Translations under genes and position numbers: made by a program
The notes under the pieces: model-generated
What the model was told of the DNA's origin: nothing
The model's input: the letters and a program-made list of their open reading frames with translations, nothing else
Databases searched by the model: none
Shown: piece after piece, positions 16,122 through 20,890 of the stretch
Layout of the letters: each line of letters opens with the position of its first letter
How positions within the stretch are numbered: position 1 is the stretch's first letter
Source of the DNA: an uncultured Litorivicinus sp.
Lineage (GTDB): Bacteria > Pseudomonadota > Gammaproteobacteria > Pseudomonadales > Litorivicinaceae
NCBI GenBank assembly: GCA_902536515.1
Contig: CACAXU010000001.1
Location: forward strand, 66,223-110,676
Direction of reading: 5' to 3'
DNA length: 44,454 bases

Positions 16122-16751
16122 TTACTTTTCACGAGACTTTTCAATCAACTCGTCGAGTAATTGAAATAACTTTTCTTCGCCGCCGGCCTGTGACACGCCT
16201 GTCACGAATTGTCCGTTCACAACAAGTGCGGGAACGCCCTGGATCCCATAAGCTCGGACACGTGCATCAGCGAGGCGCAGCGCACTTTCCGTAGCAAACC
16301 CAGCAAGCTCGCGTTTCACGACCGCTGGATCTGCCCCATATCGCTCGAAAAATGCAACGACATCGTCCACGCGCTGTAAGCGCTGCCCCTCGCGATGAAT
16401 CGCGTTAAATAGTGGCTCGTGGATCTGCTCTAGAAGTCCCAAATTCTTTGCAACCCAGAACATCCTCGCATGCATTTCCCAAGAACGCCCAAAAACAACA
16501 GGCATTCTCGTAAATAATACATCGCTAGGTAGTTGTTGGGCCCATGCCTTCAAAGCCGGATCCACCGTGTCGCAATGTGGGCATCCATACCAAAACAGTT
16601 CCAAAACCTCTACCCGCGCGGGGTCTGATGTGACCACTGGTTTAGCGAGGGTCTGGTAGTGAACTCCTTCCTGAAATGCGTCAGCAGAATAGGCTTGGTT
16701 CACCATCAAGCCCAAGCCGACAGCTATCGTCGAAAGAATGCGCTTTAACAT
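16122..16751 (-). CDS. dsbA: Periplasmic thiol:disulfide interchange protein
   Basis: Oxidises cysteine pairs in exported proteins. It has a signal peptide (MLKRILSTIAVGLGLMVNQAYS, cleavage near AYSA), a thioredoxin fold with active site CPHC (Cys57 and Cys60 in FWYGCPHC) and the cis-proline loop GVPALVVNG. The 209-residue length is usual. The ATG at 16751 shares one base with the cytochrome c4 stop (TAATG), so it is the second gene of that operon. The cytochrome c4-dsbA pairing is the common gammaproteobacterial arrangement. Its convergent neighbour encodes an exported two-cysteine protein. Confidence 0.95.
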   Translation of the reverse strand: MLKRILSTIAVGLGLMVNQAYSADAFQEGVHYQTLAKPVVTSDPARVEVLELFWYGCPHCDTVDPALKAWAQQLPSDVLFTRMPVVFGRSWEMHARMFWVAKNLGLLEQIHEPLFNAIHREGQRLQRVDDVVAFFERYGADPAVVKRELAGFATESALRLADARVRAYGIQGVPALVVNGQFVTGVSQAGGEEKLFQLLDELIEKSREK

Positions 16752-17365
16752 TACTGAAGGCCTCCGACATAGCTCGCAACAGCTTTAATATCTGCATCTG
16801 ACATATTTTTGGCGACACCATTCATCATGACATGCTGACGCTGGCCGTCACGATATGCCTTTAACTGCGTCTCTGAATATGCCGCCCACTGGCCCTTTAG
16901 TGACGGGAAAATCGCTGAAGCCACGCCAGCACCTGTCGGTCCATGACAGGCGGCGCAAGCACTAATGCCCTTTGAGGAATCACCAAACCGATACAACTGC
17001 TCTCCGCGCGTAACCAAAGCTGCTTCGACTGCGCCAGTTGAAATAGTCTGTTGTGAATAATAGGCAGCAAGATCTGCGATATCCGCATCCGATAATGTAG
17101 CAGCCATGCCTCCCATGATCGCGTTTTCTCGCGCACCATCGCGATATGCTTTGAGTGTCGACTCCAAATAAGTCGCGTGTTGGCCTGATAATTTCGGATA
17201 ATCTGCGACCACGCTGTTACCATCCAAACCGTGACATCCAGCACAACTCGCACTTTTTGATTTTCCGTGGTCAGCGTTTCCGACATAAGCCCCAATTTCT
17301 GACGAATCTGCAACGACAAATGTCGAGGCGAGGGTCAATCCAATAACCGTGATTAAAGACTTCAT
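16751..17365 (-). CDS. Diheme cytochrome c4
   Basis: Exported electron carrier of the respiratory chain. Two heme c sites are visible, CAGCH at about 41-45 and CAACH at about 137-141, in two repeated halves with Met-containing ligand regions (NAIMGGMAATLSDADIADLAAYY; HVMMNGVAKNMSDADIKAVASYV). The signal peptide is MKSLITVIGLTLASTFVVA. I placed the start at the ATG at 17365, because AAAGAG then has 9-base spacing; the in-frame ATG at 17374 directly abuts that SD. Length is 204 residues. It is divergent from engB and co-transcribed with dsbA. Confidence 0.94.
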   Translation of the reverse strand: MKSLITVIGLTLASTFVVADSSEIGAYVGNADHGKSKSASCAGCHGLDGNSVVADYPKLSGQHATYLESTLKAYRDGARENAIMGGMAATLSDADIADLAAYYSQQTISTGAVEAALVTRGEQLYRFGDSSKGISACAACHGPTGAGVASAIFPSLKGQWAAYSETQLKAYRDGQRQHVMMNGVAKNMSDADIKAVASYVGGLQ

Positions 17366-17411
17366 TCTTTTCATCTCTTTGTTGGGAAAGCGATAGGTTT
17401 ATCAATAACGT

Positions 17412-17440
17412 ATTATACATCGCACTTGAAATTTATGCAG
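17412..17440 (-). promoter_or_regulatory. Probable sigma-70 promoter of cytochrome c4-dsbA
   Basis: A perfect -10 hexamer TATAAT lies at 17417-17412 (minus strand). The hexamer 17 bases upstream is CTGCAT (17440-17435), a poor -35. The predicted transcription start is near 17405, giving a leader of about 40 bases before the ATG at 17365. Confidence 0.5.
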
Positions 17441-17457
17441 TGAAGGATTCAATTATC

Positions 17458-18066
17458 GTGCGCGATACACAGCTCAACCCAAGACTGGCTCAAACCAAAT
17501 TTCTCACCAGCGCACCGACACTGAATCATTGTCCTCCTGAATGCGGACCCGAAATCGGCTTTTGTGGTCGTTCAAACGCAGGTAAATCCAGTGCACTGAA
17601 CACATTAACTGGACAAAAAAGCCTGGCCAGAGTGTCGAAAACACCGGGACGCACACAGCTGATCAATTTCTTCGAAGTTCCGCTCACAGGTGGTTTCTTA
17701 ATCGATTTGCCAGGCTATGGATTTGCCAAAGTTCCAGAAGCAATAAAAAAACGATGGCAACAACATCTCGGCGAATTTCTTGCAAAACGCCGGACACTTA
17801 GGGGGCTTGTACTGCTAATGGATGTCAGACATCCGATGACAAAACTCGACGAACAGATGTTGTCTTTTGCCGATCATCGGGACATGCATACGCTCCTACT
17901 TTTGACGAAAAGTGACAAATTGAGCCGAAATCAAGCAGCTAAATCTCGGTTAATAGTGCAAAAACAACGTCCACAATCACTAGTGCTAAACTTTTCCAGT
18001 CTCGACAAGATAGGAGTCACCGAGGCATCTGCTTGGATTACTCATCATTTGGATGATAGTGCATAA
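17458..18066 (+). CDS. engB: Ribosome biogenesis GTP-binding protein EngB/YsxC
   Basis: Essential small GTPase of 50S subunit assembly. The G motifs are GFCGRSNAGKSSALN (G1), KTPGRTQLINFF (G2), DLPGYGFAKV (G3) and LLTKSDKLSR (G4). I chose the GTG at 17458, which is preceded by GAAGGA ten bases upstream and gives 202 residues with an N-terminus matching E. coli. A GTG at 17440 is in frame but lacks an SD. Its convergent neighbour across 133 bases is polA, the same layout as yihA-polA in E. coli. Confidence 0.93.
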   Translation: MRDTQLNPRLAQTKFLTSAPTLNHCPPECGPEIGFCGRSNAGKSSALNTLTGQKSLARVSKTPGRTQLINFFEVPLTGGFLIDLPGYGFAKVPEAIKKRWQQHLGEFLAKRRTLRGLVLLMDVRHPMTKLDEQMLSFADHRDMHTLLLLTKSDKLSRNQAAKSRLIVQKQRPQSLVLNFSSLDKIGVTEASAWITHHLDDSA

Positions 18067-18179
18067 TAAAAACCCCGGTAGCTCACACCGGGGTTTCAAC
18101 GTCCGACAGGGGTCTTGTCGGAACAACGACTCAGGGAAACTCGTTGCTAATGATTGAGACTACACGAATCTGAAAAAGT
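18064..18179 (-). ncRNA. Candidate small RNA in the polA-engB interval (Spot 42/ErsA position)
   Basis: Minus-strand candidate of about 115 bases. A promoter sits at the 3' end of polA (-35 TTGAGG, 16-base spacer, -10 GATAAT). Three consecutive hairpins follow: stem CAACGA/TCGTTG (18124-18146), stem TCCGACA/TGTCGGA with loop AGACCCC (18102-18122), and a perfect 10-bp stem AAACCCCGGT/ACCGGGGTTT (18070-18096) followed by a T-rich run ending at the engB stop. The last is a good intrinsic terminator in this direction. Spot 42 in E. coli, and as I recall ErsA in Pseudomonas, are encoded in the same polA-engB interval. I see no obvious sequence identity to Spot 42, so the homology is positional only. 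Confidence 0.55.
18070..18096 (-). terminator. Intrinsic terminator, probably usable in both directions
   Basis: Perfect 10-bp inverted repeat AAACCCCGGT / ACCGGGGTTT with a 7-base loop. The minus-strand side continues TTTTTATTAT, giving a strong terminator for the small-RNA candidate and polA. The plus-strand side has only TTT, so it would terminate engB more weakly. Confidence 0.8.
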
Positions 18180-18185
18180 TCAAAA

Positions 18186-18213
18186 ATTATCAAAAAAAAT
18201 TAATGCGCCTCAA
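18186..18213 (-). promoter_or_regulatory. Promoter candidate for the polA-engB small RNA
   Basis: TTGAGG (18213-18208, inside the last codons of polA), a 16-base spacer, then GATAAT (18191-18186). The predicted transcription start is near 18179. The region around the -10 is very A/T-rich, which favours opening. Confidence 0.45.
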
Positions 18214-20890
18214 ACCAACTTCCGCCACTCCCAATCTCGACAGTTAAAGGAACCGAAAGCGCTGCCGCCCCCTCCATTTCGGTTCGGACGATCTGTCGAG
18301 CGTCATCTAAATCCTGATCACGAACCTCAAACACTAGCTCATCGTGCACTTGCAGTAACAAATTACAGCCTAAATTTGTGGTCACTAGCGCCTTTTGAAC
18401 CCGTAACATTGCGCGTTTTATGATATCCGCTGCTGTCCCTTGCATCGGAGCATTAATCGCGGCTCGCTCGGCAGCCTGACGAATAGGCACTTGGCGTGCG
18501 TGAATATCAGGAAGCGAAAGCCGTCGGCCAAAGACCGTCTCGACGTAGCCTTTTTCGTGAGCCATTGCGCGCGTCGAGTTCATATAATGTCTCACTCCTG
18601 GATATCGCTCAAAATATCGATCGATATATTCGGTAGCCTCTACACGCTCAATTCCAAGTTGGCGAGCAAGGCCGAATGCGCTCATTCCATAGATCAGTCC
18701 AAAATTAATTGCTTTTGCACGGCGACGCTGCTCATCCGTAACGAACATCGGCTCGAGATCAAATACCTCAGCAGCGGTGGCTCGATGGATATCATCTCCA
18801 CGAGCAAAGGCGTCAACCAAACTCTGATCACCAGACAAGTGCGCCATAATCCGTAATTCAATCTGTGAATAATCAGCAGCCATGACTACCCATCCATCCG
18901 GAGCAACAAACGCCTTTCGAATTCGTCGTCCCTCTTCAGTGCGGATTGGAATGTTTTGCAAATTCGGGTCTGATGATGACAATCGCCCCGTCGATGTCAC
19001 GGCCTGGTGGAATGAGGTATGCACGCGCCCATCTTCCGGATCACAGTCATCCGGCAGCCTGTCGGTGTATGTCCCTTTCAGTTTTGAGAGGCTCCGGTGC
19101 TCAATCAGTAACTTTGGCAATGGATAGTTTAGCGCCAATTCTTGCAAAACCTCTTCGTTCGTCGAAGGCGCACCTTTCGGTGTTTTTTTCAAAACCGGCA
19201 GCTTCAACTCATCAAACAAAATTTCTTGTAACTGCTTAGGACTCGCCAAATTAAATGGACGCCCAGCCAATGTCTGAGCTTCTGACTCCAATTCCTTCAA
19301 TCTTGTACCGAGTGACTTCGATTGCGATCTCAATATCGCGCTGTCTAGTAATGCTCCATGATTTTCCATCTCACGAAGCAAAAGCATCACTGGTAATTCC
19401 AAATCTTGATAAATCGATTGTAATAATGGCTCATCAGCCAATCGCCGTGTAAATTGGTTAAACAATCGTAATGTGATGTCAGCATCTTCAGCTGCGTATT
19501 CAGATGCCTGCTCAAGCGGCACCGCTGCAAATCCAATTTGTTTTGTGCCTTTGCCACACACGTCCTCGTAAGAAGTCGTATCAACACCTAATATCCGTTT
19601 CGCTAGCGAATCCATGTCATGGCGACCACCGGCGGCATCCAGCACGTAGCTCATCAACATGGTGTCAGCGAGAGCACATCGTGGGATCAAACCTACAATC
19701 TCCAGTACCGTCAGATCATATTTCAGGTTATGACCAACCATCGTGAGAGTCGGGTCTGCTAGCAGGTTTGAAATGCGGTTCAGGACCACAGTTATATTGA
19801 GCTGCTCTCCACTCAGGTGTGCAACTGGGACATAACAAGCCCTGGCATCTGCAGCCGCTAGTGAAATTCCGACAAGCTCTGCATGCCTAGAAACAAGCGA
19901 CGTTGTTTCCGTATCAAGCGCAAATACTCCTGCCTCACGGCACTGTGACAGCCAAAACTCGAACCGATCGAGAGTAGTTACGAGCTCGTAGTCCGTATCA
20001 ACCACGGCCGGAGTCTCAACGGATGTCTGAAGCCCTACAGACGCGTTTGAGAGTTGTTTTAAAAATTGATTGAGCTCGAGCTCGGTATACAACGCGGTGA
20101 GACGCTCAAGATCCGGACCCGAACGGGATAAATTCTCAAGCCCGACTGGTAATTCACAATCAGTCTTTATCGTGACCAAGGCCCTGGACAATGGCAAAAC
20201 GTGCATGTGCTCCCGGAACATCTCACCAATCTTACCTCCAATGTCATTTGCGCTGGCAACAACCCCATCGAGAGTTCCGTAGGCATTCAACCATTTCGCC
20301 GCGGTCTTCGGGCCACACTTCGGAATCCCAGGTACGTTGTCAACGCTATCGCCGGTCAGAGCGAGAAAATCGATGATGCGTTCTGGTGGAACCCCAAACT
20401 TTTCCAAAACACCAGCAGGCGTCAGGGTGGTTTCACTCATTGTATTCACGAGCGTTACTTTATCAGTCACAAGTTGTGCTAAATCTTTGTCGCCAGTTGA
20501 AATGAGAACGGTTTCTCCGACCGCCTCAGCCATCTTCGCAAGCGTCCCAATCACGTCGTCAGCCTCGACACCCGGTACTGCAAGTAATGGAAATCCTTGC
20601 GCTTTGACAATCGCATGTAGCGGTTCTATCTGCTCACGAAGCTCCGCGGGCATCTTTTCTCGATTCGCTTTATATTCAGCGTACATATCGTCACGAAATG
20701 TCTTTCCTGACGCATCAAACACGACAACCATCCGCTCAGCACCGGTGGAATCTGCCAGCTTATTTAGCATCGAGATCACGCCACGTATCGCGCCGACAGG
20801 CTGGCCTGTGCTCGTTGTCAGTGGGGGTAATGCGTGGAAGGCACGGTATAAATAAGAAGACCCATCGACTAAAACCAAAGGTGCAGGCAT
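18200..20890 (-). CDS. polA: DNA polymerase I
   Basis: Replicates short gaps and matures Okazaki fragments. The 896-residue protein has all three domains: 5'-3' exonuclease (LVDGSSYLYRAFHALPPL; GDKDLAQLV; TGDSVDNVPGIPKCGPKTA), an intact proofreading 3'-5' exonuclease (FALDTETTSL, MVGHNLKYDL, YAAEDADITL) and polymerase (MAADYSQIELRIMAHLSGD, RRAKAINFGLIYGMSAFG, LLQVHDELVFEV). The ATG at 20890 has GGAG five bases upstream. It is divergent from thrB, as in pseudomonads. The 3' end carries the promoter candidate of a downstream small RNA. Confidence 0.97.
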   Translation of the reverse strand: MPAPLVLVDGSSYLYRAFHALPPLTTSTGQPVGAIRGVISMLNKLADSTGAERMVVVFDASGKTFRDDMYAEYKANREKMPAELREQIEPLHAIVKAQGFPLLAVPGVEADDVIGTLAKMAEAVGETVLISTGDKDLAQLVTDKVTLVNTMSETTLTPAGVLEKFGVPPERIIDFLALTGDSVDNVPGIPKCGPKTAAKWLNAYGTLDGVVASANDIGGKIGEMFREHMHVLPLSRALVTIKTDCELPVGLENLSRSGPDLERLTALYTELELNQFLKQLSNASVGLQTSVETPAVVDTDYELVTTLDRFEFWLSQCREAGVFALDTETTSLVSRHAELVGISLAAADARACYVPVAHLSGEQLNITVVLNRISNLLADPTLTMVGHNLKYDLTVLEIVGLIPRCALADTMLMSYVLDAAGGRHDMDSLAKRILGVDTTSYEDVCGKGTKQIGFAAVPLEQASEYAAEDADITLRLFNQFTRRLADEPLLQSIYQDLELPVMLLLREMENHGALLDSAILRSQSKSLGTRLKELESEAQTLAGRPFNLASPKQLQEILFDELKLPVLKKTPKGAPSTNEEVLQELALNYPLPKLLIEHRSLSKLKGTYTDRLPDDCDPEDGRVHTSFHQAVTSTGRLSSSDPNLQNIPIRTEEGRRIRKAFVAPDGWVVMAADYSQIELRIMAHLSGDQSLVDAFARGDDIHRATAAEVFDLEPMFVTDEQRRRAKAINFGLIYGMSAFGLARQLGIERVEATEYIDRYFERYPGVRHYMNSTRAMAHEKGYVETVFGRRLSLPDIHARQVPIRQAAERAAINAPMQGTAADIIKRAMLRVQKALVTTNLGCNLLLQVHDELVFEVRDQDLDDARQIVRTEMEGAAALSVPLTVEIGSGGSWFEAH

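Follow-up and report, generated by a model that had tools for sequence, protein, structure and literature searches.

Small RNAs (sRNAs) encoded at the polA locus have been described in enterobacteria, xanthomonads and alphaproteobacteria, and the work on sX13 raised the question of sRNAs at this locus in further bacteria (PMC3771888). ErsA of Pseudomonas is strictly sigma22-dependent (PMC7565897), pairs with the ribosome-binding site of algC in an Hfq-dependent manner and represses the porin OprD (PMC6321483), both of which are among its known targets. sX13 has three C-rich loops and represses many mRNAs bearing G-rich motifs independently of Hfq, and in the mode that has been tested, the C-rich loops act on motifs rich in G close to start codons (PMC3771888). 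Spot 42 (spf) of enterobacteria and Vibrionaceae is encoded in the interval between polA and engB (yihA), and anti-hemB of Burkholderia is convergent with engB just past its 3' end. sX13 is not known to be controlled by sigmaE.

Here, we analysed a stretch of DNA of 44,454 nucleotides from an uncultured Litorivicinus sp. (the window), which belongs to a metagenome-assembled genome (MAG) of 1.07 Mb that is 60.8% complete. The closest named genome is that of 'Gammaproteobacteria bacterium LSUCC0096', an OM252 strain for which the name 'Candidatus Halomarinus pommedorensis' has been proposed, family Litoricolaceae, GTDB order Pseudomonadales (PMC8269220). In the window, the gene for the GTPase EngB (YihA) (17440-18066, plus strand) and polA for DNA polymerase I (18200-20890, minus strand), both assigned from their open reading frames and homologues, are convergent, with the engB stop codon ending at 18066 and polA at 18200, and enclose the 133-nt interval, directly downstream of polA, in which a first-pass annotation of the window had proposed a structured sRNA. 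Beyond engB, a gene for a DsbA-like thioredoxin-fold protein and a cytochrome c gene are present (16122-17374); the order polA-engB-cytochrome c4-dsbA is presumably similar in Pseudomonas.

The promoter pattern of sigmaE/AlgU, as for E. coli sigmaE and P. aeruginosa sigma22, consists of GAACTT and GTCtgA separated by ~15-16 nt. On the minus strand of the interval, we identified a -35 element GAACTT (18176-18181) and, 15 nt from it, a -10 element GTCTCA (18155-18160). In 18 of 18 aligned congeners, an invariant TGAACTTTT is followed by 12 variable bases and an invariant GTC, and sites of this type are enriched across the order as described below. Judged by this pattern, the conserved elements upstream of the RNA are a sigmaE (RpoE/AlgU)-type promoter. 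Because the promoter is GAACTT-N15-GTCTCA, the start is placed near 18150 (+/- 3 nt, from the spacing to the -10 element) and, with the end taken from the T-run, the predicted noncoding RNA would have a length of ~84 nt (18067-18150, minus strand); no ATG-initiated frame was found within these coordinates when the sequence was read directly.

The first-pass annotation had placed a promoter at TTGAGG-N16-GATAAT, giving a sigma70-driven RNA of ~115 nt that starts near 18179. Both hexamers exist at a 16-nt spacing (18213-18186) and a few congeners retain an AT-rich -10-like stretch; however, 0.5 such sites are expected per shuffled region, TTGAGG is the end of the polA coding sequence (..Phe-Glu-Ala..) and constrained by it, GATAAT is missing from most relatives, and the additional 5' stretch of the longer RNA holds the conserved sigmaE elements instead. 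We therefore rejected the sigma70 promoter as being at chance level and not conserved, moved the start by ~30 bases downstream to that given by the conserved promoter, and regard a sigma70-driven RNA as very improbable.

A gene for RpoE (TIGR02939) is present in 10 of 10 near-complete congeners, with the curated cut-off passed in four genomes only, and all ten also have a gene for Hfq; in the window's own incomplete genome, the RpoE gene was not found. No sigmaE-like site was detected upstream of rpoE in the genus and, elsewhere in these genomes, matches to the strict sigmaE pattern fall inside coding sequence or at its edge. Thus, the consensus used here was taken over from E. coli and Pseudomonas. 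For the same reasons, a site before rpoE was rejected as backing for this consensus, and a genome-wide sigmaE regulon based on the strict pattern was dropped. Its promoter makes it quite likely that the candidate sRNA is RpoE-dependent.

A conserved block, CTTGTCCTTT...ATGTCAT, precedes rpoE (loci L159-L170) where a sigmaE-like site might stand. Separately, the 3' end of an rlmE-like gene retains a sigmaE-like site, GAACTTCG..GTCTTA, in three congeners (L262, L264 and L267 in G013, G001 and G015, respectively), ~110-130 nt before ftsH; this site lies in coding sequence and its conservation may be protein-driven.

Computed folding of the gap gave the three consecutive minus-strand hairpins that had been proposed. 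Hairpin 1 (18123-18147), assigned from the fold, the alignment and the pair count, has the apical loop GUUUCCCUGAG; most congeners have a UUCCCUC core in this loop, and the window loop reads CCCUG, not CCCUC. Hairpin 2 (18102-18122) has the apical loop AGACCCC. Hairpin 3 (18068-18097), together with the T-run, is the predicted intrinsic terminator of the RNA and abuts the engB stop codon; the perfect 10-bp GC-rich stem of the first reading, AAACCCCGGU/ACCGGGGUUU, is present and followed by UUUUU, and comprises 12 bp in the computed fold if flanking pairs are counted. The folding energy of 18064-18152 (minus strand) is -38.1 kcal/mol as compared with -21.0 +/- 3.2 kcal/mol for shuffled sequences (z = -5.4), and none of 200 shuffles was as good.

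We next turn to conservation of this fold among the RNAs aligned from 17 same-genus loci. RNAalifold on a MAFFT alignment overlooked hairpin 1 because of register shifts, and a hand-written structure was used instead. In this three-helix structure, 92.5% of cells are standard pairs as compared with 38-53% when partners are slid by 1-3 columns, a control that favours the structure since it was drawn up from the same 17 sequences. Moreover, 12 cells are changed on both sides as compared with 3.7 in shuffles (0/500). Helix 2 contains four doubly changed pairs, hairpin 3 is paired in 99.4% of cells, and UCCCU in loop 1 is invariant in 17 of 17 sequences. By eye, most congeners build the stem of hairpin 2 from CCGAC/GUCGG. 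L037 and L153 have GCUGGU/ACCAGC instead, and the sister-genus loci L156 and L157 have AAGCC/GGCUU or GAGCC/GGCUC; each of these stems surrounds a loop with ACCC(C). In L150, hairpin 2 is gone. In total, the three stems are kept with compensatory changes in close relatives, which is the check that the first-pass annotation had set.

To place the RNA among described families, we compared it with Rfam covariance models. Neither the ErsA model (RF01719) nor the sX13 model (RF02232) matched in the window at E <= 10. Likewise, Spot 42 gave no match even at E <= 10, in line with the earlier remark that the sequence is not obviously Spot 42, and membership in this family was rejected. The best Rfam match was to anti-hemB (RF02837) with 28.1 bits, which is below the cut-off of 49.5; homology (E = 8e-5) was rejected because background matches with scores of 27-32 bits are found at other places in Burkholderia genomes.

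ErsA itself had been placed by the first-pass annotation in the polA-engB interval of Pseudomonas, and RF01719 was found there in Pseudomonas-like genomes; the RNAs at L079 and L080 are Rfam Pseudomon-1/ErsA (134 bits), each with GAACTTTCCCGC...GTCAGA before it. Like ErsA, the window RNA is encoded on the polA strand of the polA-engB interval, and both have the same sigmaE-type promoter elements, C-rich loops, several hairpins and an intrinsic terminator; however, the window RNA is shorter (~84 nt as compared with 116 positions in the ErsA model) and does not contain the GUGUUUAGUGUUGGCA stretch of ErsA-type loci. With sX13 of the Xanthomonadaceae, it shares the location downstream of polA, three stem-loops and C-rich apical loops, whereas the third loop of sX13 is C-rich and the terminator loop of the window RNA is not. 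A sister-genus RNA, L155, gave a sub-threshold match to sX13 (30.4 bits, E 0.02). Spot 42 occupies the same interval in the same orientation, but is set apart by the covariance result and, in the enterobacteria and vibrios whose genomes were checked, by a locus without a sigmaE-like site. Finally, anti-hemB is similar in its position relative to engB and in its C-rich first loop, but no sigmaE-like site was seen before it and polA is located elsewhere. The sigmaE-type promoter, a feature absent from the first-pass annotation, ties the RNA to ErsA rather than to Spot 42.

The window RNA adjoins polA and has several conserved stem-loops, C-rich apical loops, and promoter-like and terminator elements, as in the class of polA-locus sRNAs described for sX13 (PMC3771888). 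On these grounds, it appears to be a new member of the positional class of polA-locus sRNAs with C-rich loops known from the open-access literature, and its mode of action is probably like that of ErsA and sX13. The suggestion of a positional family of regulators, with this RNA as a lineage-specific member, is supported by the covarying stems, by the presence of ErsA in the interval and by the described polA-locus sRNAs (PMC3771888).

We also surveyed the DNA downstream of polA at 117 loci in genomes drawn evenly across the order, scoring GAACTT/GTCTGA sites with a spacing of 14-16 nt. A score of at least 10 was reached on the polA strand at 47 of the 117 loci (20 of which belong to the window's family) and on the other strand at one, with a shuffle expectation of 0.65; these strict-score positives are spread over about 18 of 47 family labels. 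Among the 41 gaps of at least 60 nt closed by a convergent engB, with the window's family left out, 32 contain a site with a score of at least 9.5 as compared with 1/41 in antisense. Moreover, in 29 out-of-genus RNAs delimited by the sigmaE-type promoter and a T-run, CCC is present in 44 of 96 apical loops (50 shuffle sets: mean 13.6, maximum 21). Outside the genus, the genus covariance model R2 gave E < 0.001 for L156 and L157 only, and E = 0.6 for ErsA loci; by this model, homology of the RNA body can be claimed with confidence only as far as the sister genus, and most members of the order are not reached. Among named genomes checked, a sigmaE-like site follows polA in several other gammaproteobacteria, for example in some genomes of methylotroph-like bacteria, Pseudidiomarina and Rhodanobacter; none was found at the vibrio and enterobacterial polA loci checked or in the betaproteobacterial genomes checked, in which engB was not found near polA. 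At L039 (G078), the polA-engB gap of 469 nt contains two sigmaE-like promoters, each with hairpins and a terminator downstream, and possibly encodes two tandem small RNAs.

These data bear on the simpler idea that the hairpins are no more than the 3' end of the polA mRNA and a two-way terminator, with no independent RNA. A strong terminator is expected between convergent genes and the hairpin could end polA transcription; however, this idea leaves unexplained the invariant GAACTTTT...GTC, the order-wide and strand-specific enrichment of the promoter, the two additional covarying hairpins with kept loops, and the occurrence of ErsA at the same place. We consider it improbable, and the conserved promoter and fold argue that the interval very probably contains a real sRNA gene. 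A broader proposal, which we put forward tentatively and as possible rather than probable, is that the polA-engB gap is an ancestral sigmaE-controlled sRNA locus of Pseudomonadales, and perhaps of Gammaproteobacteria more widely, in which the promoter and the C-rich anti-Shine-Dalgarno loops are maintained and the body of the RNA changes until its sequence is no longer recognisable; ErsA, sX13 and the window RNA would then be lineages of one regulator of outer-membrane synthesis.

To find candidate targets of the loop core UUCCCUC, we looked in three near-complete congeners for its complement, GAGGGAA, 4-9 nt before an ATG. This gave 42 matches as compared with 20 for the reversed pattern. Among the 30 matches read, the sole gene type found in all three congeners was a porin-like gene with the leader AAGTAACCTTT...AATGAGGGAATCTCAAATG. 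Its ribosome-binding site reads GAGGGAATCTCA in ten congeners, including 7 of 7 genomes with a Pfam Porin_4 match; a truncated stretch alone gave no Pfam match. In G003, G006, G010 and G020, loop 1 reads UGAGAUUCCCUC and, therefore, the GAGGGAATCTCA 12-mer is present in antisense within the sRNA gene. The duplex energy was clearly better than in shuffles for G020 (2/500) and G012 (0/500), moderately better for G001, G008 and G013 (14-24/500), and no better for G007 and G018. We did not find the porin in the window's own, 60.8%-complete MAG, and the window RNA with the porin leader of G018 did not form a better duplex than shuffles allow (87/500). The porin model therefore appears good for parts of the genus and only tentative for the window's species, which has the loop CCCUG and no porin in its MAG.

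The window genome has GAGGGAATCTCA before the ATG of a hydrophobic ORF of 79 aa that gave no Pfam match (L317; G000:C25:9998-10009), a possible second target.

The conserved structure, the position and the sigmaE-type promoter, the C-rich loops, the RpoE and Hfq genes of the genus and the complementarity of congener loop 1 to the porin ribosome-binding site were all computed directly; transcription, RpoE dependence, binding, repression and any need for Hfq are what we infer. We consider it likely that the RNA is a sigmaE-driven, trans-acting, anti-Shine-Dalgarno RNA, the positional counterpart of ErsA with an sX13-like architecture. RpoE, of the sigmaE/AlgU type that responds to envelope stress, would transcribe the noncoding RNA on the minus strand from GAACTT-N15-GTCTCA, and the transcript would end at the intrinsic terminator abutting engB. 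Hairpins 1 and 2 would expose the C-rich loops UUCCCU and ACCCC, which would stop translation by pairing with G-rich Shine-Dalgarno regions; that the candidate sRNA acts through these loops on ribosome-binding sites is probable. The leading target would be an outer-membrane porin, so that envelope stress would switch off porin synthesis, as for ErsA acting on OprD in Pseudomonas, and we lean slightly towards a porin being a target in the genus.

The same sigmaE-driven RNA could have broad targets among G-rich ribosome-binding sites, with the porin being incidental or no target. sX13, with its three C-rich loops, represses many mRNAs with G-rich motifs (PMC3771888), the window loop pairs poorly with the porin site of relatives, and loop 2 (ACCCC) has no assigned target; however, only the porin recurs after GAGGGAA in 3/3 congeners with extended complementarity, part of which may be chance as the porin was singled out from 42 pattern matches. 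In total, we regard the broad-target version as rather unlikely and the porin as the leading target, which is testable in the cultured strain LSUCC0096.

The survey answers the question raised with sX13 in the affirmative for about 18 family labels within a single order, and points to a control element that they share, a sigmaE-type promoter. For OM252 ('Candidatus Halomarinus'), a group of marine bacteria with small genomes, the window RNA is a first candidate for an envelope-stress RNA. Moreover, position, promoter and loop composition jointly find such RNAs where covariance models fail.

In one congener (L154 in G014), the promoter has decayed (GCACTTTG, no GTC) and the C-rich loops are altered, while the porin site GAGGGAATCTCA is retained; the small RNA may have been lost in this species.
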